Source: an uncultured Actinomycetes bacterium (GTDB lineage: Bacteria > Actinomycetota > Thermoleophilia > Solirubrobacterales > 70-9). Taken from it: a stretch of 18,696 nucleotides of DNA. Position 1 is the first letter of the stretch, and each line of letters begins with the position of its first letter. The position numbers and the translations under genes are program-made. The stretch is taken from positions 1-18,696 of the forward strand of contig CAMLHB010000031.1 in the NCBI GenBank assembly GCA_946479725.1, given 5' to 3'. A model generated the notes under the pieces. The model worked only from the letters and a program-made list of their open reading frames with translations, was not told where the DNA came from and made no database searches. Of this stretch, positions 1 to 18,696 are shown one piece after another.

Positions 1-326
1 TGCGGACCACCGACCGGGTGGACGCCCAAAATGTCCCAGCGGGGGGGTGGTCCCCCGCACCTCTTTGCGGCTTCGGAATGGAGCGGTTAACTCAGACCGC
101 CTGGAGCAGAACTCGAAACGAATCGAGCGAGCCGCTTTCTCGCGTGAAAGCTGTCCCACCTTGGGGGCGCTGTGCAGGGTCAGATGTGTATTCGAAGCTG
201 ATTAGAGAGCGGGATAACCCCTCCGACGGCTTGTACTTTTTCGGCGTCCACGCCCACGGACCGATAGCTGCGGATCACCGAAAGAAGTTGAGCCGGAGGG
301 GTCACCCCTGTCTAGCCTGCTTCGTC
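1..326. other. Gene-free stretch downstream of gltB
   Basis: I see no convincing gene here. An open frame at 18-407 (+) runs into the 3' end of gltB on the opposite strand, lacks any recognisable domain and has no clear ribosome binding site, so I do not call it. Two short inverted repeats are visible. One is GCGGGGG/CCCCCGC at 39-58 with a 6-nt loop. The other is AGGGG-TCA-CCCCT at about 297-309, just past the gltB stop. Neither is followed by a clear T run, so their role as terminators is uncertain. No gltD is present on this side of gltB. Confidence 0.5.
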
Positions 327-4991: not shown

Positions 4992-4996
4992 TTTTG

Positions 4997-5003
4997 ACCT
5001 CCC
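4997..5003 (-). promoter_or_regulatory. Ribosome binding site that fixes the gltB TTG start
   Basis: The minus strand reads GGGAGGT, then 5 nt (CAAAA), then TTG at 4991. This is a near-ideal Shine-Dalgarno sequence and spacing. It favours the TTG over the in-frame TTG 38 codons upstream, and it places the GltB catalytic Cys at residue 35, a normal propeptide length. Confidence 0.8.
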
Positions 5004-5054
5004 GGGTTCCACGCCTTCTTCGAGCGGGCGCGCGACGGGTTGACGAGTCGGAGA

Positions 5055-5060
5055 ATTATA
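5055..5060 (-). promoter_or_regulatory. Candidate -10 element of the gltB promoter
   Basis: The minus strand carries a perfect TATAAT in the gap between the PucR-type gene and gltB. Transcription would begin near 5047 and leave a leader of about 55 nt before the TTG at 4991. The -35 position (about 5078-5083) reads CGCGAT, far from consensus. It sits on a short inverted repeat, CGCGA-GAAAA-TCGCG (5080-5094), which suggests that the promoter depends on a bound regulator. That last point is inference. Confidence 0.55.
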
Positions 5061-5131
5061 GGGCTGCCGAAAGTCCCATCGCGAGAAAATCGCGTTTTCG
5101 TGCAAATAGCGCGGAACGCTGCAGGAAATGC

Positions 5132-6274
5132 CTAGCGGATTTTCTCGAGCGCCTCGATCTTCAAGGCCAGTTCGAGCGCCGGTGCGGCCCCGCGGAGCGA
5201 GCAGCCGGTTGCCTCCTCGATGACACGGAGGCGATTCGTCACGGTGGGCCGACTCACGCCCAGCAGGGCCGCAGCAGAGGAAACGTTGCGGTCAGCGCAG
5301 AAATAAGCCTCAAGGGTCTCGCGCAAAGTTCGACCGCCGTCTCGCTCTCCCGCCAGGGCATCCAAGTACATCGTGCGCAACGAGGAGACCAGGAGCTCAT
5401 CCTGTAAGGCGGACGCGATCAAGGCCACTTCCGAATAACGCAGGGAGCTCTTCTCGCCTCGCTGGACGATCGGCAGCGTGGCCTTCGCCTGCAAATGGCT
5501 TCGCCGCCATCCCGCCAGGCCCTTGCCCGGCTCACCGAATGCCAGCGAAACCGTCGCCGAGCCCTGCCAGTCGGTTAGCTCTCGAACTTCCTCGGGCGTG
5601 AATTCCTCCCTGCCGCCAAACCAAACCCAGAGGGTTTCCTCGGCAGGGCTGACCGCGAGCGGGTGGCGCTTTGCCTTCGATGCTCGCTCGCGAATGGACT
5701 CCCGGTCCAGCGGACCACTTGCCACCACGGCGAGATGCCACCCTTCGAAGGCGTAGCCCAGGGATTGGGTATCGCAACGATCGCCGTCGAGCAGGCGCCT
5801 GATCTGCGCTGCCCTGCGTATCTCATTTGAGTCGTGGGTTGCTTCATGCGCCCGTATGTACTCCGCCGTGACGCCTGCGAGGAGGCGATCGAAGCGACGT
5901 GCCTGCATATCCAGAAGGGACTGCAGAGCCGCGCCGCGCAGTCGAACCTGTTCGGCCTCCTGGACGAGAAACCCGGCGAGGATCGCGTAGCCGGCCAGGC
6001 AGCGGCGTACTACCGCGTCCATCCTCACGCCCTTGCGAGCCGCCAGACGCGCCTGCGACAAGACGGCACGCGGAATATTGTCTTCTTCCTCGCGAGCATC
6101 CTCGAGCGAGAGGCAGAAATCGATCGCTGCCGTCAAGGCGGCGCGGAAGCCGTTGACGTACTCGGGATCGCTGGGTTCGGGAAGCGCCGGAATCTGGCTG
6201 ACGCGTACCAAGGCCATCTCGATGATCTCTTGGCGCCGATCCAGTAAGCGGGTGCCGATACTCGCGGGAGCCAC
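5132..6274 (-). CDS. PucR/CdaR-family transcriptional regulator
   Basis: This 380-aa protein is a probable DNA-binding regulator. The C-terminal 80 residues fit the PucR C-terminal helix-turn-helix: a leading LRETLEAYF helix, then a recognition region with SAAALLGVSRPTVTNRL and the VIEEATG ending. Residues about 170-300 resemble the degenerate GGDEF-like middle domain of this family, with AFGEPGKGLAGW near its end. The N-terminal 150 residues are helical with no domain I recognise. The GTG start at 6274 follows a TAG stop of a small upstream frame by 3 nt; an internal ATG at residue 22 is an alternative. Its position directly upstream of gltB suggests nitrogen- or amino-acid-linked control, but its target and ligand cannot be read from sequence. 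gltB has its own promoter, so the two genes need not be one transcript. Confidence 0.85.
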   Translation of the reverse strand: MAPASIGTRLLDRRQEIIEMALVRVSQIPALPEPSDPEYVNGFRAALTAAIDFCLSLEDAREEEDNIPRAVLSQARLAARKGVRMDAVVRRCLAGYAILAGFLVQEAEQVRLRGAALQSLLDMQARRFDRLLAGVTAEYIRAHEATHDSNEIRRAAQIRRLLDGDRCDTQSLGYAFEGWHLAVVASGPLDRESIRERASKAKRHPLAVSPAEETLWVWFGGREEFTPEEVRELTDWQGSATVSLAFGEPGKGLAGWRRSHLQAKATLPIVQRGEKSSLRYSEVALIASALQDELLVSSLRTMYLDALAGERDGGRTLRETLEAYFCADRNVSSAAALLGVSRPTVTNRLRVIEEATGCSLRGAAPALELALKIEALEKIR

Positions 6275-6277
6275 GCG

Positions 6278-6394
6278 CTATTCCGACAGCCCGCCGTAGC
6301 CGTTTGGGAGCACAGGGTTGGGGGCCCCTCCTGCCCCGGGGACCGACACCGCCCCGCGGGAGCGTTGCCTCCTCTTGATGACAATACCGAGCAT
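6278..6394 (-). CDS. Possible 38-aa small protein or leader peptide upstream of the PucR-type gene
   Basis: An ATG at 6394 opens a 38-codon frame ending in TAG at 6278, 3 nt before the GTG of the PucR-type regulator. A purine-rich AGGGGGG lies 8 nt upstream of the ATG and could serve as a ribosome binding site. The peptide begins MLGIVIKRRQRSR, hydrophobic then strongly basic, and continues Gly/Pro-rich to end NGYGGLSE. No family is recognised. The tight spacing suggests translational coupling or a leader role, or a co-expressed small peptide. In GC-rich DNA a frame this short can occur by chance, so the call is tentative. Confidence 0.3.
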   Translation of the reverse strand: MLGIVIKRRQRSRGAVSVPGAGGAPNPVLPNGYGGLSE

Positions 6395-6786
6395 CCTGCG
6401 CACCCCCCTGTAGCTCCATAGCCCGCTGCGTTTCCGAATTGCAGGCTCAGGCTTGGCCGTCTCGTCAACCGGCCACGCTCAGAAAACTAGCCACAGCGCC
6501 GAGAGGACCGATGCGTGGCGACTCTTGGTCGGTTTGTTAGAAAATCCTTGATCGTTCATCCGATCCAAGCCTCAGTCCGCTCGGACCCTCATACGGTCGT
6601 TGAGGCGGCGGCCCCCTCGGGCCCAGCGTCCCATCAGGGCAATAGGCTTCCTGAGCGCGTCGTCTACAAAGGCAACGCCAGTCCGATTGTTATGTCCAAT
6701 CCAGCGGCAGGGTCATCTCCCAAGGGACGGGCAGCGAGCCCCAGCGTTCGGCGAATCGGCCATCGCCAGAGACGAGCCTAGGCATC
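6395..6786. other. Divergent intergenic region between the PucR-type operon and the winged-helix gene
   Basis: About 390 nt without a gene I can support; a plus-strand open frame at 6515-6781 has no domain or ribosome binding site. The region must carry both divergent promoters. On the minus strand TTGACG (6468-6463) resembles a -35 hexamer but has no good -10 at 17-18 bp. It sits inside a perfect inverted repeat, TGGCCG-N10-CGGCCA (6454-6475), a candidate operator. Confidence 0.4.
6454..6475. promoter_or_regulatory. Inverted repeat overlapping a -35-like TTGACG
   Basis: TGGCCG (6454-6459) and CGGCCA (6470-6475) form a perfect 6-bp dyad around 10 nt. The minus-strand TTGACG falls in its centre. 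The location upstream of the small ORF and PucR-type gene suits an operator, possibly autoregulatory. There is no -10 of quality, so this remains a weak candidate. Confidence 0.25.
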
Positions 6787-7365
6787 GTGGAAGAGGATCA
6801 GGGCGCCATCCTGATTGCCGCTGAGTTCGAACTCAGGCGCAAGATCTTGAGCTTCCTGGGGGAGGAGCGCAGGGCCACCGCGAAGGAGATACAGACGGCG
6901 ACGGGAGGGTCGCGCAGCACCGTAAACGAACACATTCGCCGCCTCCACGAGGTCGGTCTGATCACCTGCGTCGAGGAAAACCCGAAACGAGGCGCCATCG
7001 AGCGCGTCTACGCTCCTGCCCCCGGCTACCTCTTCGCCAACGACGACGATGTAAACGCCATGGGGCCAAAGGCCGAGAGGCAAATCATCCGTCGCCAGTT
7101 GAAGTCTCTGATCGACGACGCTTCGTCGGCACTTTCCCGGTTGGGGCTGCTGCAGCGCCGGGGCAACGTGTTCAGCTCCGCTCGCGCACGCGTCGACCTC
7201 GAGGGATGGCAGGACCTGTCAGACATACATACCCGGGCGCTGGAGGAAATGGAGCGGGTGCGCCGCGAGAGCGACGAGCGCCTTCGCCAGACCGGCGGCA
7301 AGACCGTCAGAGCCAGCTCCGGCATCTTTCTATTTGAGATTCCCGAGCGCTCGGCAGATCCCTGA
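6787..7365 (+). CDS. Winged helix-turn-helix regulator (ArsR/MarR-like)
   Basis: This 192-aa cytoplasmic protein is probably a transcriptional regulator. Residues about 10-80 form a winged helix: an RRKILSFL helix, then TAKEIQTATGGSRSTVNEHIRRL as helix-turn-helix, and a wing around CVEENPKRGAIERVYAP. This resembles ArsR/HTH_20-type domains. Residues about 95-175 are helical and charged and could dimerise or bind a ligand; there is no obvious metal-binding Cys/His cluster. The start is GTG with only a weak upstream AGG. It is the only convincing plus-strand gene here, diverges from the PucR-type operon and converges on the lectin gene, with a shared terminator between them. Its target is unknown. 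Confidence 0.75.
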   Translation: MEEDQGAILIAAEFELRRKILSFLGEERRATAKEIQTATGGSRSTVNEHIRRLHEVGLITCVEENPKRGAIERVYAPAPGYLFANDDDVNAMGPKAERQIIRRQLKSLIDDASSALSRLGLLQRRGNVFSSARARVDLEGWQDLSDIHTRALEEMERVRRESDERLRQTGGKTVRASSGIFLFEIPERSADP

Positions 7366-7392
7366 TCCGGTGGGCGTCTCCAGTTGAAAAGT

Positions 7393-7423
7393 GCCCGCGC
7401 GCCGGACAGGCCGGCGCGCGGGC
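7393..7423 (-). terminator. Strong hairpin terminator between converging genes
   Basis: A perfect 13-bp GC stem (arms 7393-7405 and 7411-7423) closes a 5-nt loop. On the minus strand it is followed by ACTTTTCAA, giving a short T run as expected for an intrinsic terminator of the lectin gene that ends at 7457. On the plus strand the downstream T content is weaker, so termination of the winged-helix gene (stop 7365) is possible but less sure. Confidence 0.8.
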
Positions 7424-7456
7424 TGGTCATTCACATGTCGGTCGAGGCGAGGTTCC

Positions 7457-8290
7457 TCAGCTGCCGTACCACCAGTGGCCGACGGTGCCGTCGGGCAGTC
7501 GGCCGACGACATCGACCCGCGTGCTGTTCCAGCTCGCGGCCGCCGGCCCGGCGCCCGATGCGAGCGGCCCGCTGACCGTGAGATCGCTGACGTTCTGCCA
7601 TTCGCTCCAGCCGGAGCCGATACGCCACTTCTGCCAGAGGTTCCCGTCGAGTCCCTCGACGAAGACATTGGCGCCGCCGCTGCCGACCGAGGAGACGTCG
7701 GGCTTGCCCGAGATCTGCCCGGAGAGGCTTTCGAAGCTCCAGGCGGTACCGCTCCAGTGCCAAACGCCGACGTTGGCGGACGGCATGCGGGCGACTACGT
7801 CGAGCGTGCTGGCGCTGGTCTTGACGGCTCCAACCCCCGAGCTGATCGCACCGCTGCCGGTGAGGAGACTCAAATCCTGCCATTCGCTCCAACCGGCACC
7901 GTTCCACCACCTCTGGACCAGATCGCCATTCGTCGACTTGGCAAAGACGTTGAGGTGCCCCGATCCAACCGAGGCGATGTCGGGATCGCCGGTGACGCTC
8001 CCGCCGAGATTTTCGAAATGCCAAGCGCCGTCGTAGTACCAGTGTCCGACGGTGTTATTGGACATCCGAGCGACGATATCGACGCGCGGCGCGCCCCATG
8101 AGACAGACCCGGGACTCGAGGCGATCGGGCCGCTGCCGGTCATTGCGCTGACGTTGGTCCATTCGCTCCAGGGACCGTTGTTGGCCCACCTTTGCCAGAG
8201 GTTGCCGTCCAGGCCCTTCGCGAACATGTCGAGAGCGCCCGAGGCGGGCGAGTCGAGCGACGGATCGCCGAGGATCTGGCTGGACCCGAG
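7457..8290 (-). repeat. Three tandem 282-bp repeats encoding PLL propeller units
   Basis: Units begin near 8290, 8008 and 7726 on the minus strand and each encode about 94 residues; the last is slightly short. Shared positions include the opening LG or LSG, the GDP/GKPD turn, a DGNLWQRW-like strand, WSEW, and a VDVVAR-M/L segment followed by VGHW or VGVW. Each unit contains two sub-repeats, consistent with six blades. Confidence 0.75.
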
Positions 8291-8741
8291 GCTCTGGAAT
8301 TGCCAGCTCGGGGGGGGGGGGGGCGGCGGGGGTTCCCGGATCAATCCAATAGAAGATCCCGTAGACGGTCGTATTGGTCTTGATTTCTCCCCCGTTGGGG
8401 TAGATCGTCCCGTAGTTGACGTTTTCGGTCGGGTTGAGTTCAAGGTAGGCGGCCTGGTTCGGGCCGCCGGTGCACACCGGTTTATTTTGTCCAAGGTAGT
8501 TGTCCGCGCAGACCGAGTGCTGGACCCCCAACACCCAGACGCCTACGGCGTAGTTGTGTACCCCGTGACCGTCTAGATACCCGGTGCAGTAATTGTTTGG
8601 GCCGAGCGTCACGCCATAACAGAAATGTTCTGCGTGCACCGAGGCCTTCGCCGGGCCGGCCATCGCCAGCAGAGCAAGAGCCGCAGCGATGACAGCGGCC
8701 AGCGCCGGCCATCGCGAATGTTTCAAGCGGAGTTCGTTCAC
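7457..8741 (-). CDS. Secreted PLL-type beta-propeller lectin, frame broken at a poly-C tract
   Basis: The gene starts at GTG 8741, behind a strong GAGGGAGG ribosome binding site. An N-terminal signal peptide (basic start, then an Ala/Leu core ending GPAKA) predicts export. A domain of about 105 aa follows, with four Cys (FCYG, NYCTG, SVCAD, PVCTG) that could form two disulfides. A Pro linker is encoded by the C tract. The C-terminal part holds three repeats of about 94 aa with motifs such as LDGNLWQRW, WSEWQ and TVGHW, typical of PLL-like sugar-binding propellers; each repeat should make two blades. With 14 C the frame shifts and translation would end at 8055 after about 84 unrelated residues, so no propeller is made. 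With 13 or 16 C the product would be about 427 aa. The break may be real slippage or a sequencing error. Confidence 0.8.
8310..8323 (-). repeat. Homopolymer tract C14 (minus strand) inside the lectin gene
   Basis: Fourteen consecutive G on the plus strand encode the Pro linker between the N-terminal domain and the propeller. Upstream and downstream frames match only if the tract is 13 or 16 long. The position at a domain junction is where length change would switch the propeller on or off without harming the signal peptide. Confidence 0.85.
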
Positions 8742-8746
8742 TTGTG

Positions 8747-8754
8747 CCTCCCTC
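8747..8754 (-). promoter_or_regulatory. Ribosome binding site that fixes the lectin GTG start
   Basis: The minus strand reads GAGGGAGG, then CACAA, then GTG at 8741. This supports GTG over an in-frame TTG at 8768 and leaves a compact signal peptide. Confidence 0.75.
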
Positions 8755-8773
8755 GTTGCCTTTTGCAAGGCCC

Positions 8774-8849
8774 GGGAGCGGCGCCTGACGCGGCGCCTCC
8801 CCGAGAGCCCTGCCTCTCGTGAGGGGGAGGCTCTTCCATCTTCTGGAAG
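8774..8849 (-). promoter_or_regulatory. Structured 5' leader of the lectin gene (three hairpins)
   Basis: Between a weak -10 candidate (TGATAA, minus strand, about 8862-8857) and the GTG lie three successive dyads. They are CTTCCA/TGGAAG (8833-8849, 5-nt loop), AGAGCC/GGCTCT enclosing CCTC/GAGG with a TCGT loop (8804-8834), and GGCGCC/GGCGCC (8780-8797). Together they would give a folded leader of about 100 nt before the ribosome binding site. No known riboswitch class is recognised. Confidence 0.35.
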
Positions 8850-8886
8850 GTCGCCTTATCAATGTGGGAAGGCTTTGGAGCGCATG

Positions 8887-8903
8887 TTGTGCAAGTTGCA
8901 CAA
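8887..8903. promoter_or_regulatory. 17-bp palindrome, candidate operator upstream of the lectin gene
   Basis: TTGTGCAA-G-TTGCACAA is a perfect 8-bp dyad around one base, which is typical of a dimeric regulator site. It lies about 146 bp upstream of the lectin GTG and just upstream of the weak -10 candidate, between the cupin stop (8965) and the lectin gene. The binding protein is unknown; the nearby winged-helix regulator at 6787-7365 is one possibility. Confidence 0.45.
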
Positions 8904-8964
8904 ATACCCCTCCCGCTCTGCTCCAGTTGGGAAAGCTAGCGCTCGCCCTATGGCCAGCAGCAAC

Positions 8965-9336
8965 CTAGGCCCAGGACATCGGCTCGTAGCCGCCCTCGGG
9001 CTGAACGCCAATCAGCAGGGCGGTGACCGGAGCGTCGGAGCGGTTGAGGATCTGGCGGTTCGCGGCGGGCTCGAGCGAGGCGAAGGTGCCGGCCGGCGCC
9101 GGGTGGTCCTCGCCGTCGAGCCGCATCACCGCCTCGCCCTCGAGGATCACGTACAGCTCGACCTGTCCGCTCTGCGCCTCGTCGTGCTCGGGGATCTGCC
9201 CGCCGGGCGCGATCTCGACCAGGTTGTAGCCGAAGGCCTGCGTCCCGAGCGCCTTGCGGGCGAGCTGCCAGGTGCAGTCGCCCGACCCCTCCATCCGCTC
9301 GAACTCATCCCGGTGCTTGATCGCGTAGTTAGCCAT
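8965..9336 (-). CDS. Small single-domain cupin protein
   Basis: This 123-aa cytoplasmic protein has a single cupin beta-barrel. The pattern PGGQIPEH (His51) leading to VELYVILEG (Glu60), then a GTFASLEP-to-ILN second motif, fits the two conserved cupin blocks. The usual second His of the first motif and the His of the second motif are not evident, so metal binding may be reduced or absent. Start is ATG at 9336 with only a weak upstream AGGG. It stands alone between the TolB-like gene and the lectin gene, and a 53-nt inverted repeat ends 21 nt before its start codon. Substrate unknown; such cupins are often small-molecule binders or isomerase-like enzymes. Confidence 0.75.
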   Translation of the reverse strand: MANYAIKHRDEFERMEGSGDCTWQLARKALGTQAFGYNLVEIAPGGQIPEHDEAQSGQVELYVILEGEAVMRLDGEDHPAPAGTFASLEPAANRQILNRSDAPVTALLIGVQPEGGYEPMSWA

Positions 9337-9357
9337 GAAGCGACCCTAACCCCCAGC

Positions 9358-9410
9358 CCGAACTGCATCAACTTTTCTATCCAGCAGGTGGAAAAGTTGA
9401 TGCAGTTCGG
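9358..9410. repeat. Perfect 20-bp inverted repeat (large hairpin) upstream of the cupin
   Basis: Arms 9358-9377 (CCGAACTGCATCAACTTTTC) and 9391-9410 are exact reverse complements around 13 nt. Further pairing of the 13 nt could leave only a CAGCA loop. It begins 22 nt upstream of the cupin ATG, so it would sit in the 5' leader or act between transcripts. There is no T run on either side, so it is not a standard terminator. A dispersed palindromic element of REP or MITE type is possible. Confidence 0.85.
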
Positions 9411-9414
9411 AGGC

Positions 9415-9455
9415 CGTGTCGCTTTAGTGGCCGTATAGACCACTAAGTCGACACG
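9415..9455 (-). terminator. Imperfect hairpin after the TolB-like gene
   Basis: Arms 9415-9430 and 9440-9455 pair over 16 nt with two mismatches around a 9-nt loop. It lies 10 nt beyond the stop of the TolB-like gene (9465), where a transcript end is expected for the long amino-acid cluster. No T run follows, so it may instead be a processed or protein-bound palindrome. It stands only 4 nt from the perfect hairpin next to it. Confidence 0.4.
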
Positions 9456-9464
9456 CCCTTCGGC

Positions 9465-10541
9465 TCAGCTGCTCCAGTCGGGCTCGAAGGCGTTCTTGGC
9501 GAGGACCTTGGCCTTGCCGCCGGCGTAGGGAACGCTCATCACGTTGTGCTTGAGGCTCGGGTCGAAGCCGCCGGTGTAGCCGAGGATGAACTGGCCATCG
9601 GCCGAGAGGGCGGTGCCGACGAAACCCTGCTCCCCCGCCTGTCCGACCGGCTTTTCGCCGCCCGTCTTCGGGTTGACCTTGACCGCATAGCTCGTGTCCT
9701 GGCCCTCGAACTCGGCGAGGAGCCGGTTGCCGTTCGCCGACCAGGCGGTCGGGAAGAGACCCTGCAGCAGCGGGTCGACTTTGGTGTGGGTGAGACGCTT
9801 GACGCCCTTGCCGTTCGGGTTCATCAGGTAGAGCTCGTTCTTCGGGCCGTATTTGCGTTTCTTCGCTTCGAGCGCTTTGACGAAGACGATCTTCTGCGGC
9901 CCCCAGAGCGGGTAAGCGGAGTTGTGGTCCTTGGTCAAACGATGCGGCACCACGGCCTTGACGCTGACCGCGCCGGGCGGCAGCACTTCGATCCGGAAGA
10001 TGTCGCTGCGCGGCGGGAACGCTTCCGAGCCGGCCATCCCGTAAACGAGTTCGCCGCCGTCGGGCGAGAAGCTGACGCCGTTGAAGAATCCGTGCGCGAT
10101 CGTCCGCTGCGCCCCGGTTTCGGTGTCGATCAGGGTGAGGCGCTGCTTGCCCAGTTCCGGCCCCAGCACCGCCACCACCAGCTTCGAGTCGGGCGACCAG
10201 GCGAAGACTTCGGGGAGCCGCCAACCCTTGACCAGGACCGTCGGCGGCGCGCTGCCGTCAGCAGGGGCGAGGACTATCTCCGGTTGAGTCTTGGGCGGCT
10301 TGCTCCTCAACACTGGACCCTGCCGAAGCAAGGCGACGATCTTCCCGTCGGGTGAGACGTGCGGGTTTTCCCCTGCGACCAGCTTCTTCGCTCCAGACCC
10401 GTCGTCGTTCGCCGTGAAGACCGTCGGCTGTGCGGGGTTGCGCACGTAAGCGAGCGTCGCCTGCGCGGCGGCTGGAACCGCAAGCAGCGCGGCGAGGACA
10501 AGAGCGCACAGGACGAGCGAGGGCTTCTTCATGGTCGGCAT
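9465..10541 (-). CDS. Secreted TolB-like (PD40/WD40-type) beta-propeller protein
   Basis: This 358-aa protein begins with a signal peptide (MKKPSLVLCALVLAALL core, ending about AAAQA near residue 28), so it is exported. The rest consists of beta-propeller repeats with the PD40 signature: VSPDGK (about 62), WSPDSK (about 115), FSPDGG (about 158), WSANGN (about 267) and LSADGQ (about 312). Proteins of this type act as periplasmic or cell-surface binding scaffolds; no catalytic residues are evident. Two ATG codons (10541 and 10532) are possible starts and neither has a strong ribosome binding site. The stop of the upstream membrane protein is 9 nt away, so it is probably the last gene of the thrB transcript. 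Its link to threonine synthesis is unclear. Confidence 0.8.
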   Translation of the reverse strand: MPTMKKPSLVLCALVLAALLAVPAAAQATLAYVRNPAQPTVFTANDDGSGAKKLVAGENPHVSPDGKIVALLRQGPVLRSKPPKTQPEIVLAPADGSAPPTVLVKGWRLPEVFAWSPDSKLVVAVLGPELGKQRLTLIDTETGAQRTIAHGFFNGVSFSPDGGELVYGMAGSEAFPPRSDIFRIEVLPPGAVSVKAVVPHRLTKDHNSAYPLWGPQKIVFVKALEAKKRKYGPKNELYLMNPNGKGVKRLTHTKVDPLLQGLFPTAWSANGNRLLAEFEGQDTSYAVKVNPKTGGEKPVGQAGEQGFVGTALSADGQFILGYTGGFDPSLKHNVMSVPYAGGKAKVLAKNAFEPDWSS

Positions 10542-10550
10542 GGGCCGACT

Positions 10551-10928
10551 CTAACCCGGGCCGATGACGGCCGCGACGACGAGGCCGCCGCTGACGCCGA
10601 TGAACGAGACCGTCGCCAGAATCCGGTACCAGAGGCGCTTGTCGACCTCGGGCTCGAAGGCGAGCGGGACGAAGAGGAACGGGTTGACGAGGGTGCCGAA
10701 GCCGAGCGCGATCGCCACCGCCGTCGGCAGCTCCGGCACCGCGAGCCCGACCCCGATCAGGATCAGGCCCATCATCACGTAGTCGAGGTGGACCTGGCGA
10801 ATCCGCTGCGGGACCTTGACCCCGATCCGTCGCAGCCACTCCGGCCGCTCCTCTCGCACCACCATCGCCCAGCCGAGCAGGCCGCCGAGCGCCAGCTCGA
10901 TCAGGCCGATGCGGACAACCCAGTCCAT
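10551..10928 (-). CDS. Small four-TM membrane protein, possibly styrene-oxide isomerase/hydroxylaminobenzene-mutase-like
   Basis: This 125-aa protein has about four membrane segments (roughly 5-24, 47-66, 68-90 and 101-123). The stretch RQVHLDYVMMGLILIGVGL with His47, followed by Asn82 in LVNPFLF, resembles by eye the H-x(n)-G-M and N motifs of small four-helix isomerases such as styrene oxide isomerase and hydroxylaminobenzene mutase. This is a pattern match from memory and is not certain. Its ATG shares one base with the thrB stop (TGATG), so it is translationally coupled to thrB. An amino-acid efflux role would also fit the context, but nothing in the sequence shows it. Confidence 0.55.
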   Translation of the reverse strand: MDWVVRIGLIELALGGLLGWAMVVREERPEWLRRIGVKVPQRIRQVHLDYVMMGLILIGVGLAVPELPTAVAIALGFGTLVNPFLFVPLAFEPEVDKRLWYRILATVSFIGVSGGLVVAAVIGPG

Positions 10929-11806
10929 CAGAGCTCGGGGACGTCGGCGCCGAGCGGACTGAACGGCAGCCGCCGCACCTCGGCCCAGCCGGCGCAGCGT
11001 TCCTCCAGCGCCGCGGCCACCTGCCCTGCCTCCTGCCAGGTCGTCCAGACGAGGACGGTCGGGCCGGCGCCGGAGATCGTCGCCCCCAAGGCCCCCAGCT
11101 CGCGCGCCGAGTCGACGATCTCCATCGAGCGCGGGTAAAGCTCGCGGCGGCGGTCCTGGTGAAGGGAGTCGTGGAGACCGCGGGCGAGCAGGTCGAGGTC
11201 GGCGCTGCGCAGTCCCAGCACCAGCGTCGCCGCAGCGGAGACGTTGGCGACGGCGTCGGCCAGCGGCACCTCGGCCGGAATCGCCTCCCGCGCCAGCTCG
11301 GTCGAGACCTCCTCAGGCGGGATCACGACGATCCCCTCCAGCCCCTCCGGCGGGTCGAAGCGCGCCGCGGTCGGCCCGTCCTCCCCGCTCCCGCAGACCA
11401 CGAACCCGCCGTAGATCGCCGCCGCGACGTTGTCGGGGTGCCCCTCGATCTCGGTCGCCCGCGCCAGCATCTCCTCCTTCGTCAGCGCCAACTCGTAAAG
11501 GTGGTCGGCGGCGTAGAGGCCGGCGACGATCGCCGCCGCACTCGAGCCCAGCCCCCGCGCCAGCGGGATCTCGCTGCGCAGCCGGAAACCGATCCCGTCC
11601 GCCGGCCGCAGGCTCTCGAACGCCCGCACGATCAGGTTGTCGCGCTCCGTCGAAACCTCCAGCCCGCCCGGGTCGAAGGAGAACTCTCCGGCCTCCTCCA
11701 CCTCCAGGTCCAAGTGCAGCGCCATCGCCGCCGCCATCGCGTCGTAGCCGGGGCCGAGGTTGGCCGAAGAGGCGGGAACGCGGACGAGCCGGTGGCGCGC
11801 GGTCAT
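10928..11806 (-). CDS. thrB: Homoserine kinase
   Basis: ThrB phosphorylates L-homoserine with ATP to O-phospho-L-homoserine, the substrate of threonine synthase. The 292-aa protein is a GHMP kinase of normal length. It has the N-terminal PASSANLGPGYDAM motif (11-24), the ATP loop PLARGLGSSAAA (81-92) and the C-terminal glycine motif GATISGAGPTVLVW. The start ATG at 11806 overlaps the stop of the AAA ATPase gene by four bases (ATGA), and its own stop overlaps the ATG of the membrane protein. Translation of thrB is therefore probably tied to the ATPase gene rather than directly to thrC, which is unusual for this pathway. Confidence 0.95.
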   Translation of the reverse strand: MTARHRLVRVPASSANLGPGYDAMAAAMALHLDLEVEEAGEFSFDPGGLEVSTERDNLIVRAFESLRPADGIGFRLRSEIPLARGLGSSAAAIVAGLYAADHLYELALTKEEMLARATEIEGHPDNVAAAIYGGFVVCGSGEDGPTAARFDPPEGLEGIVVIPPEEVSTELAREAIPAEVPLADAVANVSAAATLVLGLRSADLDLLARGLHDSLHQDRRRELYPRSMEIVDSARELGALGATISGAGPTVLVWTTWQEAGQVAAALEERCAGWAEVRRLPFSPLGADVPEL

Positions 11807-12945
11807 CGCGCTTCATCCTCTCCGATTCCGCGCTCCAGCCTTACAATCCACTCTGTCAGCAGGGGGTCGACCAAGTCCCATCCCTCCCCCACTCGATGCA
11901 GATGCCCTGAGCGCGCGAGAGCGTCGCGTGCATGCTGGACTCCACCCTTCGAAAGGTTGAAGCGGCTGAGGGTGCGGTCGGAGAAGAGGGCATCCTGCCC
12001 CAGCGCGAGCGCCGCGAGTACTGCCTTCTCCTTCGTCTCGAGCGCGTCCCAGGTCGCTTGGAGAGCCTCGCCGTATTCCGAGAAGACGGCCCCCAGAGTC
12101 GCCTGCCAGCGCTCGGGGGTAGCCGGTTCTCCCCGCGGGGTCCGCTCCCACAGGTAATGAGCAAGCAGCATGGCGCGTTGGGGATGACCTTTGACGAGAT
12201 CGAGAAGGGCGTGGAGCACCGGCGTCACGTCACGCTCTCCAGCTTCGAAACGCTCGCCGATGTATTCGATCAGGTCCGCATCCGCGAGGGGGCCCAGGCG
12301 CATCACCCGAGCCTGGCCGAAGAAGGGCCTCTCGTAGGCGCCGAACAGATGCTCCATGAGCCCCGGGTGCGACCCCGCGAAGATGTAACTCGCGGCGTCA
12401 CCGTGCCTCTGTATTTGGCTGCGGAAGAGGCCGTCGATCTGGGGATTCACCGCGAGCAACGACTGGAACTCGTCGAAGGCGACCAACGTCCGCGTCCCGG
12501 TCCGCTCGAACAGCTCGAGCGGTAGATCGAGCAGCCCGACCAATGCACGGGAGGCATCCAGTTCTTGGTCCAGGGAAGGGCGAGATTCGATCCTCGCCGG
12601 CCCCGCCCCCACGCTTACTCCGGGTCGCAAGGCTCGAATAGCTGCATCCGCCGCGCGGCGCGGGGCCGATTTCAAACCTCCGTAAGCCTTTTCCAGGCGC
12701 ACCGCAACGTCCTCTTTCGAAAGAACCCCGTAGAAGTCGACCTCGACGTAGTTGAACCCGATCTTTTCGGCTTCTCTGCCGACGCGCCGCAGGAGGCTGG
12801 TCTTCCCGTAGCGCCGAGGTGCGGAGAGTCGCGTCGCGTGGCCCCCCCCAGCCAGAGCGACCAACTTCTCCGCCTCCTCCTCCCGATCGATGAGATGTGC
12901 GGGATCGAGGGGGCGGCTGAAGACGAAAGGGTTTACTTCCTCCAT
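11803..12945 (-). CDS. AAA-type ATPase with C-terminal winged helix, inserted between thrC and thrB
   Basis: This 380-aa protein resembles the 'ATPase domain predominantly from Archaea' (PF01637, ORC/STAND-like) group. It has a DREEEAEKL start typical of this fold, a Walker A variant SAPRRYGKTS (about 41-50, Lys48; the first Gly is Ala), a Walker B LVAFDEFQSL (Asp158-Glu159) and a sensor-like YIFAGSH (about 187-193). Residues about 305-375 look like a winged helix that could bind DNA. It has no known part in threonine synthesis. Start is ATG at 12945, with no clear Shine-Dalgarno sequence; a -10-like TATAG lies close upstream, so the transcript may be leaderless. Three 17-bp palindromes precede it. 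Related ATPases can sit in toxin-antitoxin-like or defence modules; no partner gene is evident here. Confidence 0.85.
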   Translation of the reverse strand: MEEVNPFVFSRPLDPAHLIDREEEAEKLVALAGGGHATRLSAPRRYGKTSLLRRVGREAEKIGFNYVEVDFYGVLSKEDVAVRLEKAYGGLKSAPRRAADAAIRALRPGVSVGAGPARIESRPSLDQELDASRALVGLLDLPLELFERTGTRTLVAFDEFQSLLAVNPQIDGLFRSQIQRHGDAASYIFAGSHPGLMEHLFGAYERPFFGQARVMRLGPLADADLIEYIGERFEAGERDVTPVLHALLDLVKGHPQRAMLLAHYLWERTPRGEPATPERWQATLGAVFSEYGEALQATWDALETKEKAVLAALALGQDALFSDRTLSRFNLSKGGVQHARDALARSGHLHRVGEGWDLVDPLLTEWIVRLERGIGEDEAR

Positions 12946-12947
12946 GA

Positions 12948-13010
12948 GTATGGCTATACCATACCAGCTCGTACGGTTTTACCGTACTAACTCGTACGGT
13001 TCTACCGAAC
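12948..13010. promoter_or_regulatory. Triple 17-bp palindromic operator array (23-bp period)
   Basis: Three sites fit GTAYGG-N5-CCRTAC: GTATGGCTATACCATAC (12948-12964), GTACGGTTTTACCGTAC (12971-12987) and GTACGGTTCTACCGAAC (12994-13010). The third has one degenerate base in its right half. Six-nucleotide spacers (CAGCTC, TAACTC) give an exact 23-bp period, just over two helical turns. The array fills the gap from the thrC stop to 2 bp before the ATPase ATG and overlaps any promoter there (TATAG within the first site on the minus strand). This is expected of a cooperative autorepressor site. The binding protein is unknown; the ATPase winged helix is a candidate. Confidence 0.8.
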
Positions 13011-14045
13011 TCAGTCGAAGACGGCGCGCTCGACAGCGCTTAGGTCGTTGTCGCAGTTGATCACCGAGGGGGCTTTGGAGAGGGCCGTGTCGGGGTCCTT
13101 GAGGCCGTGGCCGGTGAGGACGCAGACGACGGTCTCGGGCCGGGCGCTGCCCTCGACGACAGGGAGGCCGTGGGCGAGGAGGCCGGCTACGGAGGCGGCG
13201 CTGGCGGGCTCGCAGAAGACGCCTTCGTTGTCGGCCAGCCAGCGGTAGGCATTCAGGATCTGCTCGTCGGAGACGGCGGCGACGCGGCCGCGGGAGGCGG
13301 TGAAGGCGGCCATCGCCTCCTCCCAGCGCGCCGGGTTGCCGATCCGGATCGCCGAGGCGACGGTCTCCGGCTTCTCGACCGGCTCGCCGCGGACCAGCGG
13401 CGCGGCGCCCTCGGCCTGGAAGCCGTAGAGGATCGGGGCGGCGTCGACCTCCTGAAAGCCGCGCCAGTAGGCGGTGACGTTGCCGGCGTTGCCGACCGGG
13501 ATCGCCAGCGCCCCGGGCGCGGCGCCGAGGTCCTCGACCACCTCGAAGGCCGCCGTCTTCTGGCCTTCGATCCGGTGCGGGTTGACCGAGTTGACGAGCT
13601 CGATCGGGTGCTTCTGGGAGAGCTCGCGGACGATCCGCAGGGCGTCGTCGAAGTTGCCCTGCAGGGCGACGACGCGGGCCCCGTGCATCAGCGCCTGGGC
13701 GAGCTTGCCGATCGCGATCTTGCCCTCGGGCACGATCACCGCCCCGCGCAGCCCGGCTCGGGCGGCGTAGGCGGCGCAGCTGGCGGCGGTGTTGCCGGTC
13801 GAGGCGCAGATGATCGCCTCCGCCCCGCGCCCCTTCGCCCGCGAGACCGCCACCGTCATCCCCCGATCCTTGAAGGAGCCGGTCGGGTTCAGCCCCTCGA
13901 ACTTGAAATAGGCCGTGGCCTCGATCCGCTCGGAGAGCCGCGGCGCTTCGATCAGCGGCGTCGATCCCTCGTTCAGCGTCACCACCGGATCCCCCGGCTC
14001 GAGCGAGAGCCGGTCGCGGTAGCGATCGATCAGCCCCGCCGCCAT
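13011..14045 (-). CDS. thrC: Threonine synthase
   Basis: ThrC is a PLP enzyme that converts O-phospho-L-homoserine to L-threonine. The 344-aa protein belongs to the short bacterial fold-type II class. It shows the PLP lysine Lys59 in [10 protein letters not shown], the ASTGNTAAS phosphate-binding loop (about 80-90) and the PVGNAGN motif. The ATG at 14045 is preceded by GAGGAGGAG (14051-14059) with 5-nt spacing and shares one base with the hom stop (TGATG). The frame stays open upstream to 14147 inside hom, but that longer form has no ribosome binding site and lacks similarity. The stop is followed at once by the operator array of the ATPase gene. Confidence 0.96.
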
Positions 14046-15277
14046 CAGTACTCCTCCTCGATCACCCTGATGCTGCGCGGAGGCGAGCGCAGGTCGTCGA
14101 GCCGGGCCAGCTCGGCGACCGCGGCGGCGAACTTCGACTCCAGGCACTCGTGGATCACCATCACCAGCCGCGCGTCTTCGCCGGTCCCCCGCTGGACGAA
14201 GCTCTTGACAGAGACGCCGTGGTCACCGAGCACCGTCGCCACCCGGGCCAGCACGCCGGGGCGGTCGGCGACCTCGAGGTGGAGGTAGAAGGAGGAGCTG
14301 ACGTCCCCGACGATCGGCAGCTCGACCCGGGTCTCGTGCACCGGCGCGTCGCCGGCGAGGATCGAGACGACGTCGCCGAGCACCGCCGAGGCGGTCTGCA
14401 GGCCGCCCGCCCCCGGCCCCGACATCGTCACCTCGGTGATCGCCGGCGCCTCGACCATCACCGCGTTGAACGGCCCCTCGATCGGCGCCAGTGGATGCCC
14501 CCCATAGAGGAAGCAGGGGAAGACGCGGACGCTGATGCCGCCGTCGCGCCGTTCGGCGACGCCAAGCAGCTTCAGCGAGAGGCCCAGCTCCTTGGCGTAA
14601 GCGAGGTCGTCGGGCTGGATCCCCTCGATCCCCTCGAAGGCGACCTCGGAGAGGGTGACCGGGGTGTGGAAGGCGAGGCGGGCGAGGATCGCCATCTTCG
14701 CCGCGGCGTCCGCGCCCCCCACGTCGTCGGAGGGATCGGCCTCGGCATAGCCCAGCTCCTGCGCCCGCGCCAGCACCTCGTCGTAGCCGGCGCCGGAGGC
14801 GGCCATCTCGCTGAGGATGAAGTTGGTGGTGCCGTTGACGATCCCGAAGACCTTGGAGATCTCGGTGACGCCGAAGCCCTCCTGGATCGTCCGCACGATC
14901 GGGATCACCGCCGCGACCGCGGCCTCGAAGCGCAGCTGCACCCCCGCCTCGCGGGCGACCGCGAAGAGCTCGTCGCCGTGCTGGGCGAGCAGCTGCTTGT
15001 TGGCGGTGACGACCGGCTTGCCGGCGCGCAGGGCGGCGAGGACGTGATCGCGGGCCGGATCGGTCCCGCCCATCAGCTCGACCACCAGGTCGGAGCCGGC
15101 GAGGATCTGTTCGAAATCGCCGTGCTCGCGGGTGAGGACGCCGGCGATCTCCGGCCGCCGCCCGGTCGCCGCGAACACCGCCTCGGCCCGCTCCGCCAGC
15201 AGCTCGGCGAAGGCGGCGCCGACGGTGCCGCGTCCCAGCAGCCCGATGCGGACGGGTTTGGAGCCCCCGGCGTCCAC
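14045..15277 (-). CDS. hom: Homoserine dehydrogenase with C-terminal ACT domain
   Basis: Hom reduces L-aspartate-4-semialdehyde to L-homoserine with NAD(P)H, the first step committed to threonine and methionine. The 410-aa protein has a nucleotide-binding motif GLLGRGTVG (12-20), the TANKQLL segment, the catalytic domain with NGTTNFILS and the [10 protein letters not shown] motif, and an ACT domain at about 335-405 ([17 protein letters not shown]). ACT domains commonly give feedback inhibition by threonine. The GTG start at 15277 lies 3 nt after the lysA stop, with GAGGGACG (15286-15293) as a ribosome binding site, so lysA and hom form one transcript. Confidence 0.96.
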
Positions 15278-15280
15278 GCG

Positions 15281-16588
15281 CTAGACGTCCCTCGCGGTCA
15301 GGTCCTCGTAGGTCTCCCGCCGAACCACGACCCGGGCCTCGCCGTCGCGGCAGAAGACGACCGGCGGCCGCGGCACGCCGTTGTAGTTGTTGGCCATCGC
15401 GTAGCCGTAGGCGCCGGTGGCCGGGGTGACGAGGACGTCGCCGACCGCCGGCTCGGCCAGCTTGGCGTCGCGGACGATCACGTCGCCGGACTCGCAGTGC
15501 ATGCCGGCGATCGTGACCAGCGTCTCGGCCGGAGCGGCGGCGCGGTCGGCGATCAGCGCCTCGTAGACCGAGCCGTAGAGCATCGGCCGCAGGTTGTCGG
15601 ACATGCCGCCGTCGACCGCGACGTAGGTCCGCACGCCGGGGATCTCCTTGACGGTCCCGACCCGGTAGGCGGTGAGGCCGGCGTTGGCGACCAGCGAGCG
15701 GCCGGGCTCGACCAGGATCCGCACGCCCTCGCCGAAGACCTCGGCGACGCCGCGGACCTTGACGTCGACGTAGGCGTCGATCGAGGGCGGCTCGTCCTCG
15801 GCGGTGTAGGCGACGCCGAGGCCGCCGCCGACGTTGACGACCCGGCACCACTCGCCCGCCAGCTCGCCCAGCGCCTCGATCGCCAGCTTGTAGGGCTCGA
15901 GCTCGAAGATCTGAGAGCCGATGTGGGCGTGCAGCCCGACCAGCTCGAGCTTCTCGGAGGCGAGCACGCGCTCGACGGCACGCGCCGCCAGACCGTCCGC
16001 CAGCCCGAAGCCGAACTTGGAGTCGAGCTGGCCGGTGGTGATGTAGTCGTGGGTCGAGGGCTTGATCCCGGGGGTGACCCGGATCAGCACCCGCTGCGGT
16101 TCGTCGAGCAGCCGCTCGCAACGCTCGATCTCGTCGAAGGAGTCGAGGATCAGGTGGCGGATCCCGGCGCGGGCGGCGAAGAGGATCTCCTCGTCGGACT
16201 TGTTGTTGCCGTGCATGTGGATCCGCTGGGGATCGAAGTCGGCCTTCAGCGCCATGTGCAGCTCGCCGCCGGAGGCGACGTCGACCGAGAGCCCCTCCTC
16301 GGCGAAGAGCCGGTAGGCGGCGGTGCAGGGCAGGGACTTGCTGGCGAAGAGGACCTCGTACTCGGCACCGCGGGACTCGAAGGCCTCGCGGTAGGCGCGG
16401 GCGCGGGCGCGGATGTCGTCCTCGGCGTAGAAGTAGGCGGGGGTGCCGAACTCTTCGGCCAGCTCGACGACGTCGCAGCCCGCGACCTCGAGGTGCCCCT
16501 CGGCGTCGACCCGGCTCCCCTGTGGGAAGACGGCCGAACCCGCGATCGGATCGTTTGCCACCGGCCCCGCCTGTAAATGCTCCGCCAT
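15281..16588 (-). CDS. lysA: Diaminopimelate decarboxylase
   Basis: LysA decarboxylates meso-diaminopimelate to L-lysine using PLP, the last step of lysine synthesis. The 435-aa protein is a fold-type III enzyme. Key parts are PLP Lys84 in FASKSLPC, the HAHIGSQ loop (220-226), the GGGLG phosphate motif (254-258), EPGRSLVANAG (294-304), catalytic Cys365 in HCESGD, and Tyr395 in GAYGYAMANN. It heads the lysine/threonine cluster. The ATG at 16588 has no strong ribosome binding site; a TTTAAT about 20 nt upstream could be a -10 giving a very short leader. It may also be read through from the Gly-rich gene 58 nt upstream. Confidence 0.97.
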   Translation of the reverse strand: MAEHLQAGPVANDPIAGSAVFPQGSRVDAEGHLEVAGCDVVELAEEFGTPAYFYAEDDIRARARAYREAFESRGAEYEVLFASKSLPCTAAYRLFAEEGLSVDVASGGELHMALKADFDPQRIHMHGNNKSDEEILFAARAGIRHLILDSFDEIERCERLLDEPQRVLIRVTPGIKPSTHDYITTGQLDSKFGFGLADGLAARAVERVLASEKLELVGLHAHIGSQIFELEPYKLAIEALGELAGEWCRVVNVGGGLGVAYTAEDEPPSIDAYVDVKVRGVAEVFGEGVRILVEPGRSLVANAGLTAYRVGTVKEIPGVRTYVAVDGGMSDNLRPMLYGSVYEALIADRAAAPAETLVTIAGMHCESGDVIVRDAKLAEPAVGDVLVTPATGAYGYAMANNYNGVPRPPVVFCRDGEARVVVRRETYEDLTARDV

Positions 16589-16646
16589 AGGACGGGCATT
16601 TTGACGATTAAAGGGGGAGCGGGCGGAACGCTCGATCCAGCGGGGA

Positions 16647-17327
16647 CTATTTGCCGCCGACGATGCCTTCGACCGCGCCGACGGTTTCGTCGACGGTCTT
16701 GCCGACCGGGGATTCCGGGCCGGCGACGCCGTCGACGGTTTCTTCGGTCGTCTGGGTGACGCCGGTTTCTTCGAGGGCGCCGCCGGTCACCGTTTCGTCG
16801 ACCTGGTGGACGGTTTCGTTGACGGTGCTGGTGACTTTTTCCGAGGTCGAGGAGGTGGTCGTGCCGCCCCCTTCTTCGCCGCCTCCGGTTCCACCGCCGC
16901 CGCCGGACGCGGTGCCCGAGCCACCCGAACCGCCGCCGGGGGCCGAGCCGCCTCCCCCGCCCGCACCGCCTCCAGCCGGATCTTCTCCACCGCCGCCGGG
17001 ACCCTGGCCTGAGCCGCCAACCCCCTGCTGTCCCGTCCCGCTCGCGCCCCCACCGGCGCCACTGCCGGCTTCAGCCGAGCCGCCGCCCGCGGGGCCGCCG
17101 GCGCTACCTTTCGCGGTCGGGCTGCCGCCGCCTGCGGCACCCCCCGCAACGCCGGCGGCCTCCGCTGCCGAGACGGCGGCTTCGTCGTTCCCGCCGATCA
17201 ACCCCGGGATCGGGAAGTTGTCGAAGACCTGGACCGAGACCAGGAGCACGAAGGCGACGACCGCCGTCGCGATCAACCCTGCGCCCGACATTGCGCCGAG
17301 CATGTAGTTGCGCGCCTGCCTGATCAT
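16647..17327 (-). CDS. Membrane-anchored Gly-rich protein with TV-rich C-terminal repeats
   Basis: This 226-aa protein starts MIRQARNYMLGAMSGAG and has one transmembrane segment at about 13-35, which predicts a short cytoplasmic tail and an outside C terminus. Residues about 55-150 are a low-complexity Gly/Ala/Ser stretch that would be flexible. The C-terminal 70 residues carry degenerate repeats of the kind TV-x2-TV-x2-VDETV and ETVDGVAG, ending VGAVEGIVGG. No known domain is recognised. The convincing N-terminal membrane helix and the ordered C-terminal repeats argue for a real gene despite the low complexity. It lies 58 nt upstream of lysA on the same strand. A cell-surface or wall-associated role is a guess from its architecture. 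Confidence 0.65.
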   Translation of the reverse strand: MIRQARNYMLGAMSGAGLIATAVVAFVLLVSVQVFDNFPIPGLIGGNDEAAVSAAEAAGVAGGAAGGGSPTAKGSAGGPAGGGSAEAGSGAGGGASGTGQQGVGGSGQGPGGGGEDPAGGGAGGGGGSAPGGGSGGSGTASGGGGGTGGGEEGGGTTTSSTSEKVTSTVNETVHQVDETVTGGALEETGVTQTTEETVDGVAGPESPVGKTVDETVGAVEGIVGGK

Positions 17328-17331
17328 CCGC

Positions 17332-17404
17332 CGTTCGCCTACCCACGTTAGTCAGTGGATAACGAGCGGTCAGAGATTACTCCTAAAATTGAGTAGGGCG
17401 AACG
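17332..17404. promoter_or_regulatory. Intergenic region bounded by inverted arms, upstream of the Gly-rich gene
   Basis: CGTTCGCC (17332-17339) and GGCGAACG (17397-17404) are 8-bp inverted arms about 57 nt apart, flanking almost the entire gap between the CDF gene and the Gly-rich gene. Inside, CGTTA (17346-17350) and TAACG (17360-17364) form a shorter dyad. A weak CTGACC/TAACGT pair at 17-bp spacing is the best promoter guess for the Gly-rich gene. Confidence 0.25.
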
Positions 17405-17405
17405 T

Positions 17406-18335
17406 TCAGGCAGGCGGCGCGTTCTCGACGCGCAGCAGCTCCTGGCTCGCCTCTTCCTCCATCTGCAGGGTCGTGTGTTCGATCCCGTAGCTCTCGCGCA
17501 GGGTCAGCTCCAGCCGGCGCCGGATCAGGTCGCGGTCGGCGTCCTGGGCCACCACGACGTGGGCGGCGATCGCGCCGAAGCCGGAGGTGACGGTCCAGAC
17601 GTGGAGGTCGTGGACCGAGCGCACCCCCTCCTCACGGCAGATCTCCTTACCCACCGCTTCGACGTCGAGGCCGGCCGGCGCCGCCTCCATCAGAACGTCG
17701 AACGGCTCCTTGATCAGGCGCCAGGAGGAGGCGAGGATCAGCGCCGCGATCAGCAGGCCGACGATCGGGTCGACGACCGGCGAGCCGCCGAGCAGGACGA
17801 AGGCGCCGGCGACGACGACACCAACCGAGCCGAGGGCATCGGCGGCGGAATGGCGGAGGACGCCCTCGAGGTTGATGTCGTCGCGCTGGCCGCGGGCGAG
17901 GACGACGGTGGCGGCGACGTTGCCCGCCAGGCCGAGGACGCCGAGGCCCAGGACTCCCCAGCCATCGATCTTCGGCGGGTCGGAGAAGCGCCCGATCGCG
18001 ACGATCGCGACGGCGACGCTCACCGCGACGAGGAGCAACCCGTTGACGAGCGCGGCCAGGACCTCCGAGCGCTGGTAACCGAAGGTGCGGCGGCCGGCGG
18101 CGGGCAGGCTCGCCAGCCGTGCGGCGATCAGCGCGAGGACGATCGAGCCGGCGTCCGAGAGCAGATGTCCGGCGTCGGCCAGCACCGCCAGCGAGCCGGT
18201 GAGGAAGCCGCCGATCGCCTCGGCGACGAGCAGGCCGACGTTGATCCACAGCGCCCACCACATCCGCCGCCGGCTGTCGGCGCGACGGGCGTCCAGGGCG
18301 TGGCTGTGGCTGTGACCGTGTCCGGAACCGTGCAC
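17406..18335 (-). CDS. Cation diffusion facilitator (CzcD/ZitB-type metal exporter)
   Basis: This 309-aa inner-membrane protein exports divalent metal, most likely Zn2+, in exchange for protons. It has a His-rich N terminus (GHGHSHSH), six membrane segments, the transport-site motif DAGHLLSD in TM2 (Asp54, His57, Asp61) and HSAAD in TM5 (His162, Asp166). This HxxxD pairing marks zinc-type members. The C-terminal cytoplasmic domain with VHDLHVWTVTSG (about 240-255) matches the CDF regulatory domain. Start is GTG at 18335 with only a weak ribosome binding site. It has its own gap on both sides and looks like a single-gene unit. Confidence 0.92.
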   Translation of the reverse strand: MHGSGHGHSHSHALDARRADSRRRMWWALWINVGLLVAEAIGGFLTGSLAVLADAGHLLSDAGSIVLALIAARLASLPAAGRRTFGYQRSEVLAALVNGLLLVAVSVAVAIVAIGRFSDPPKIDGWGVLGLGVLGLAGNVAATVVLARGQRDDINLEGVLRHSAADALGSVGVVVAGAFVLLGGSPVVDPIVGLLIAALILASSWRLIKEPFDVLMEAAPAGLDVEAVGKEICREEGVRSVHDLHVWTVTSGFGAIAAHVVVAQDADRDLIRRRLELTLRESYGIEHTTLQMEEEASQELLRVENAPPA

Positions 18336-18354
18336 GCAACCGAGGATACGACCG

Positions 18355-18401
18355 CCGACGGGACGAAAACGGTCCTATACGGACCGGAATCGTCCCGTCG
18401 G
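18355..18401 (-). terminator. Nested inverted repeat between the acyl-CoA dehydrogenase and CDF genes
   Basis: Outer arms 18355-18366 and 18390-18401 (CCGACGGGACGA and its exact complement) enclose inner arms CGGTCC/GGACCG (18370-18386) around TATAC. On the minus strand the inner hairpin is followed by TTTTCGTC, so it could terminate the acyl-CoA dehydrogenase transcript. The outer pairing would compete with or extend it. It also lies just upstream of the CDF start, so a regulatory role is possible. Confidence 0.5.
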
Positions 18402-18409
18402 CCGGAGGT

Positions 18410-18696
18410 TCAGGCGGGGACGGGCTCTTTCGTCGCCTCGGCGGCTACTTCGGCGGCGTAGCCGAGGCGCTCGGCGTATTCGCGGGCCTGCATCCGCGAG
18501 ATGACCATCCGCTGGATCTCGGCCGTGCCCTCGAACAGCTGGTAGATCTTGGCGTCGCGGAACCACTTCTCCAGCGGGCACTCGGTGCTCTGCGCGTAGG
18601 GGCCGACCAGGTCCATCAGCGTCGTCGTCGCCCACATCGTCACGTCGCCGGCCTTCAGCTTCGACATCGAGCCCTGGCCGCCGGTCATCGGCACCC
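18410..18696 (-). CDS. Acyl-CoA dehydrogenase, C-terminal fragment (cut by window edge)
   Basis: About 95 residues of the C terminus are visible, and the 5' part lies beyond the window. The segment RDAKIYQLFEGTAEIQRMVISR is the highly conserved C-terminal block of FAD-dependent acyl-CoA dehydrogenases, which oxidise acyl-CoA to the 2-enoyl-CoA in fatty-acid or amino-acid breakdown. The frame stays open to the edge, so it is a normal gene end and not a broken copy. Substrate chain length cannot be judged from this part. Confidence 0.9.
   Translation of the reverse strand, partial: VPMTGGQGSMSKLKAGDVTMWATTTLMDLVGPYAQSTECPLEKWFRDAKIYQLFEGTAEIQRMVISRMQAREYAERLGYAAEVAAEATKEPVPA

Follow-up and report, generated by a model that had tools for sequence, protein, structure and literature searches.

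Array of palindromes in the threonine operon

The DNA analysed here is an 18.7-kb stretch from an uncultured Actinomycetes bacterium (contig CAMLHB010000031.1, positions 1 to 18,696; hereafter the window), and the element in question is an array of three palindromes between thrC and a gene for a STAND-type ATPase. On the minus strand the order is lysA, hom, thrC, array, ATPase gene and thrB, where lysA and hom are names that we assigned by recognition of the sequence. The genes are tightly joined: 3 bp separate lysA from hom, one base belongs to both hom and thrC, and the end of the ATPase gene overlaps the start of thrB in the ATGA at 11803-11806, an overlap already reported in the first-pass annotation. 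The array thus occupies the only gap in the run from lysA to thrB that exceeds a few bases.

This gap, from the thrC stop (13011-13013) to the ATPase start codon (ATG, 12943-12945), measures 65 bp and is filled by three dyads of 17 bp with an exact period of 23 bp and spacers of 6 nt (Table 1). The array begins at the first base past the thrC stop and ends 2 bp short of the ATG, so that the coordinates bear out the arrangement described in the first-pass annotation. The pattern GTAYGG-N5-CCRTAC, which had been given for all three palindromes, holds for dyads 1 and 2, whereas dyad 3 carries an imperfect arm. The dyads had also been called phased; the period is indeed exact, but 23 bp corresponds to about 2.2 helical turns, so that successive dyads are regularly spaced and do not lie exactly on one face. 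The block was correctly described as AT-richer, with a GC content of 47.6% compared to 68.4% for the window, 72% for thrC, 74% for thrB and 65% for the ATPase gene. At the RNA level (window 12943-13013), bases at the thrC stop are able to pair with bases before the ATPase ATG, giving one long hairpin that encloses the array.

The combined palindrome and repeat score of the array was 47, compared to a maximum of 41 when the whole window was shuffled (40 times) and of 34 when the 63 bp were shuffled (5,000 times). Taken singly, dyads of the GTAYGG type are not rare here: the window has three matches when up to two mismatches are allowed, where 1.16 would be expected, and three were reached in 24 of 200 shuffles. 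It is the tandem arrangement that is unusual.

Table 1. Positions of the array, the ATPase and its domains, and the adjoining genes in the window.
Feature	Position	Strand	Sequence	Remarks
Whole array, proposed operator	12948..13010			Three dyads, 23-bp period, score 47
Dyad 1, GTATGG-N5-CCATAC	12948..12964		GTATGGCTATACCATAC	Adjoins ATPase start
Dyad 2, GTACGGT-TTT-ACCGTAC	12971..12987		GTACGGTTTTACCGTAC	7-bp arms
Dyad 3, GTACGG-N5-CCGAAC	12994..13010		GTACGGTTCTACCGAAC	One arm imperfect (CCGAAC for CCGTAC); adjoins thrC stop
STAND-type P-loop ATPase, 380 aa	11803..12945	-		Nearest folds PABY2304 (2qen) and SSO1545 (2fna)
Walker A region, SAPRRYGKTS, residues 41-50	12796..12825	-		Columns (nearly) invariant in alignments A1 and A2
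Walker B region with D158 and E159, residues 153-159	12469..12489	-		Alignments A1 and A2
C-terminal winged-helix-like domain, residues ~301-379	11809..12045	-		Predicted model; proposed DNA-binding part
thrC, threonine synthase	13011..14045	-		PALP domain
thrB, homoserine kinase	10928..11806	-		GHMP kinase domains; start overlaps ATPase stop

The ATPase and its family

In the predicted structure of the ATPase, the fold of SSO1545 and PABY2304 is common to the whole chain, and the structural neighbours comprise archaeal STAND ATPases, ORC initiators and NLR immune receptors. Residues G47, K48, T49, S50, D158 and E159 were invariant in both ATPase alignments, within the regions that we take to be the Walker A and Walker B motifs. 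At the C terminus the model places helices at residues 304-315, 323-328 and 333-345, strands at 349-352 and 355-358, and a last helix at 361-379, an order that we read as a winged helix. We class the modelled window ATPase as a STAND ATPase of the SSO1545/PABY2304 type with a predicted winged helix.

Pfam scores were 26.7 bits for AAA_35 and 20.3 bits for AAA_14, with a cut-off of 27 for each. Among 7,994 candidates scored, 1,851 were homologues at E ≤0.001. PF14516 was carried by 97 of the 120 relatives listed, which, where named, were called 'hypothetical protein', 'uncharacterized protein' or 'AAA+ ATPase superfamily predicted ATPase'. The relatives with a named organism were Solirubrobacterales, with P0015 at 86% identity. 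The PADLOC models of anti-phage defence gave no family up to E 0.01 with the window ATPase. Distant homologues were present on 12 plasmid records (all below 60% identity) and on one phage record; in viral_contigs no relative was confirmed by single-protein or alignment searches.

The array in closer relatives

The 498-residue frame P0142 starts inside ThrC, shows an apparent frame change and crosses the gap into the N terminus of an ATPase of this family. Identity was 60% in the ThrC part (over a 288-column match) and 76% in the ATPase part (over the N-terminal stretch compared). Because P0142 reads from ThrC into the ATPase, the two genes adjoin in this lineage as they do in the window. Back-translation of the gap peptide of P0142 allows two perfect GTTCGG-N5-CCGAAC dyads at a distance of 22 bp, and by hand a third, lacking one base, could be placed ahead of the start codon. 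After shuffling of the gap peptide, a dyad pair 20-26 bp apart was allowed in 0 of 20,000 peptides for GTTCGG, a motif derived from P0142 before its own test, and in 1 of 20,000 for GTWYGG, the half-site set of the window. Judging from the sequence, the P0142 lineage likely carries an equivalent array in its thrC-ATPase gap. A region search with P0142 returned P0142 as the sole match.

Twelve homologues with upstream-translated extensions were compared with the half-site CCRWAC at no more than 3 nt from the start. Seven fitted without mismatch and three with one, while the chance per homologue, for extensions of at least 4 codons, is about 3.5% for no mismatch and 34% for up to one; several of the 12 are close kin. 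They were taken from 20 flagged rows in a pool of 149 proteins. The other eight (P0055, P0059, P0079, P0082, P0101, P0108, P0115 and P0127) were left out because the extension had no start codon at the consensus place or because the N terminus was shorter.

Arrays upstream of Bacteroidota homologues

We fetched, with their flanks, homologues from relatives of a Bacteroidales genome, at about 21-30% identity. The first sample consisted of 50 loci (L004-L053) covering 52 of 69 places; the remaining 17 were mostly lower in the list, plus a few stronger partial matches. An earlier dyad-pair score was dropped, as it demanded near-perfect arms and gave the window array itself a score of 0. With 60 shuffles per region, the 120 bp upstream gave a strong signal of dyads or tandem repeats for 30 of 52 homologues compared to 16 of 148 other open reading frames (ORFs) of the same loci; with 40 shuffles per region the counts were 31/52 and 16/148. 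Restricted to regions without other ORFs, the signal was present in 29 of 44 homologues and in 12 of 94 controls. In Bacteroidota, these computations show a family-level link between the ATPase genes and upstream dyad arrays. Across loci L004-L053 and L060-L089, short-palindrome arrays were seen upstream of many ATPase_2/AAA_14-type ATPase genes.

The array sequences vary between subfamilies, and 17 of 21 arrays had a period of 14 or 15 bp, compared to 1 of 19 control arrays. This period was spotted in the first sample and then tested on a second one, which held 30 loci of 31 places from other genomes of the phylum (30 regions) and in which six long ORFs (873-875 aa) and two short ones (231 and 324 aa) were all retained. 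Irrespective of score, the best lag was 14 or 15 bp for 16 of the 30 homologues, a number that averaged 1.75 and never exceeded 7 in 60 shuffled sets, and for 5 of 76 other ORFs. A box like the promoter motif TAnnTTTG was present in 40 of 52 first-sample regions compared to 43 of 149 controls. Among the 25 strong arrays in box-bearing regions, 15 ended at or before the box, 8 crossed it and 2 lay after it. Three plasmid homologues were also inspected: the one from Geobacter had a perfect 17-bp dyad upstream, and those from Sulfurimonas and Parabacteroides had AT-rich dyads only.

The motif was then compared between ATPases from different genomes in non-syntenic positions (no similar ORF of at least 120 aa in the fetched flanks). 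An upstream match of 14 out of 16 was found for 13 of 33 pairs with at least 60% protein identity and for 26 of 1,265 less similar pairs, the pairs not being independent of each other. By this sequence comparison, the motif follows the ATPase subfamily in Bacteroidota. We also searched for exact copies of TTATTASTAATAA in five genomes. Three of these had a single site each, at the ATPase; of three sites in the fourth, two were at the ATPase and the other belonged to an array some 150 bp upstream of an ATPase_2-DUF234 gene; the fifth had none. TTGTGTAACACAA was found three times in a sixth genome, twice at the ATPase and once within an ORF. All exact copies outside ORFs in the six genomes precede an ATPase gene. 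Control patterns occurred 0-2 times per genome, so that the location of the copies is informative and their count is not; and, as the six genomes were picked for arrays with the motif or a variant, only absence elsewhere counts as a test. At L058:740-908, an array of TTATTACTAATAA lies about 150 bp before an ATPase_2-DUF234 gene, and that genome has a further ATPase gene with the same motif.

Proposed function of the array

With moderate confidence, we propose that the array is a DNA operator of the ATPase gene, bound by the winged helix of the ATPase itself, and that this autoregulation also touches thrB. Dimers or oligomers of the ATPase would occupy successive dyads via the C-terminal winged helix, and the occupancy would set the expression of the ATPase gene and, through the ATGA overlap, of thrB. 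This could occur by blocking an internal promoter within the array, or by forming a roadblock to transcription coming from lysA-hom-thrC. As the array directly adjoins the start codon, it more probably serves repression, with activation a less likely possibility. Binding may be switched by the nucleotide state (ATP or ADP), as it is in other STAND or ORC-like regulators. That the ATPase itself binds, that the outcome is repression and that nucleotides exert control are steps that we infer. The first-pass annotation had likewise suggested an autoregulatory operator, with cooperative binding by a tight repressor, and the autoregulatory part of this suggestion gained support from the Bacteroidota arrays with their near-constant period, from a motif that follows the subfamily, from copies outside ORFs occurring only at ATPase genes, from the winged-helix-like domain in the model and from a P0142 gap able to encode the same architecture.

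Several findings weigh against this proposal. A consensus scan of 12500-13500 gave no sigma-70-like promoter. No upstream excess was seen for 22 of the 52 first-sample Bacteroidota homologues, and at a fixed score threshold of 10 an array was present in 13 of the 30 second-sample homologues, with a period of 14-15 bp in just 9 of the 30. The periods differ, being 23 bp in the window and 14-15 bp in Bacteroidota, and with such unlike geometry the Bacteroidota result backs the principle and not the exact site. In the half-site comparison P0022 (extension too short) and P0134 (3 mismatches) failed, and genome G036, one of the six searched for exact copies, was without a match. The strict GTAYGG pair was found in no actinobacterial contig of genome_contigs, a collection in which the presence of close relatives was not checked. 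This may mean that the half-sites vary, as suggested by P0142, that the collection lacks close relatives, or that the strict form of the array is not widespread. The strict paired pattern matched one contig in genome_contigs (Bacteroidales) and two in viral_contigs, with no link to an ATPase seen.

The Bacteroidales contig holds five dyads at 23-bp spacing (L001:2473-2581), of which four are GTATGG-N5-CCATAC and one is a variant. No ATPase is present; the array is flanked by a serine hydrolase-like ORF and a HisG-like ORF, both named by eye. In the viral contigs, tandem GTAYGG-type dyads with a spacing of about 23-24 bp lie at L003 ~4215-4340 (several) and at L002:5065-5104 (two). As 23-bp GTAYGG dyads occur with no ATPase seen, next to a HisG-like ORF and on two viral contigs, the motif alone is no signature of the family.

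More tentatively, and with somewhat less than even confidence, a broad class of bacterial STAND ATPases might be self-operating DNA switches, with a palindrome array for each subfamily at its own promoter and a spacing set by the assembly of the protein (14-15 bp in Bacteroidota, 22-23 bp in the window lineage). ATPase and array would then form a private module, which in the window lineage would be wired into the threonine operon. Such a private, regularly spaced operator array would supply each of these abundant ATPases with a concrete DNA target. If the window ATPase binds the array, threonine synthesis in these bacteria would hinge on a nucleotide-driven switch.

Alternative explanations

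The array could instead be the operator of a separate dimeric regulator, for example a TetR-like protein, that is encoded elsewhere and controls the ATPase gene and thrB. A dyad of 17 bp is of a size that suits common homodimeric regulators, and the connection between the ATPase and DNA is one that we infer. However, the Bacteroidota motif tracks the ATPase subfamily without shared neighbours, exact copies outside ORFs precede ATPase genes in the genomes searched, and no other match with up to two mismatches was found elsewhere in the 18.7-kb window. We therefore regard a separate regulator as rather unlikely.

It is improbable that the array and the ATPase gene are a transferable module in which the array serves as a recognition or insertion site. 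Array and gene do recur in Bacteroidota without common flanks, the GC content of the ATPase gene is below that of thrC and thrB, and distant homologues occur on plasmid and phage records. Within 12800-13200, however, dyads flank the gene on a single side only, the P0142 lineage has thrC and the ATPase gene in the same order, so that the placement is not recent, and of the 25 box-bearing Bacteroidota arrays 15 stop at or before the box and 8 cross it, in the manner of operators.

A role as RNA, in which hairpins in the thrC-ATPase gap would attenuate the message, stabilise it or direct its processing, appears quite improbable as well. The transcript folds at -34.7 kcal/mol (z -7.6), far better than shuffles, but any three palindromes must fold well, and the three dyads are alike in sequence beyond what pairing asks for. 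Scans for terminator-like sites (12500-13500) and for Rfam families (whole window) were negative; the 15 of 25 Bacteroidota arrays that end at or before the promoter-like box may escape transcription, and 2 of 25 are placed after it. That the array is a product of chance or of local repeat expansion without function is very improbable: single dyads are not uncommon in the window, but the shuffle scores of the array, the P0142 back-translation, the N-terminal half-site fits and the family-level association in Bacteroidota all speak against it.

Comparison with known systems

In the literature searched, which leaves subscription journals largely outside its coverage, none of the papers listed dealt with palindrome arrays in front of genes for these ATPases. 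An operator bound by the ATPase itself can be compared with iteron and origin recognition box (ORB) arrays, in which repeated binding sites lie next to the gene of a replication initiator. The sites of the window differ from these in being true dyads within an operon, and no origin was seen, although none was searched for. SSO1545 and PABY2304 are archaeal STAND/AAA+ ATPases, whereas the window ATPase is bacterial and encoded within a threonine operon. Orc1-2 of Saccharolobus, an archaeal ORC-like regulator of transcription, combines AAA+ and winged-helix domains and is reported to bind to the promoter of its own gene, the ATP form binding strongly (PMC9738581). The window ATPase resembles it in predicted domain composition and would resemble it in binding to its own promoter. 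The mycobacterial STAND-type regulator IniR is likewise actinobacterial, and its ATPase domain is predicted to be similar to SSO1545 (PMC5760070). IniR is needed for iniBAC induction and has 818 aa with a separate LuxR-like DNA-binding domain, whereas the window ATPase has 380 aa.
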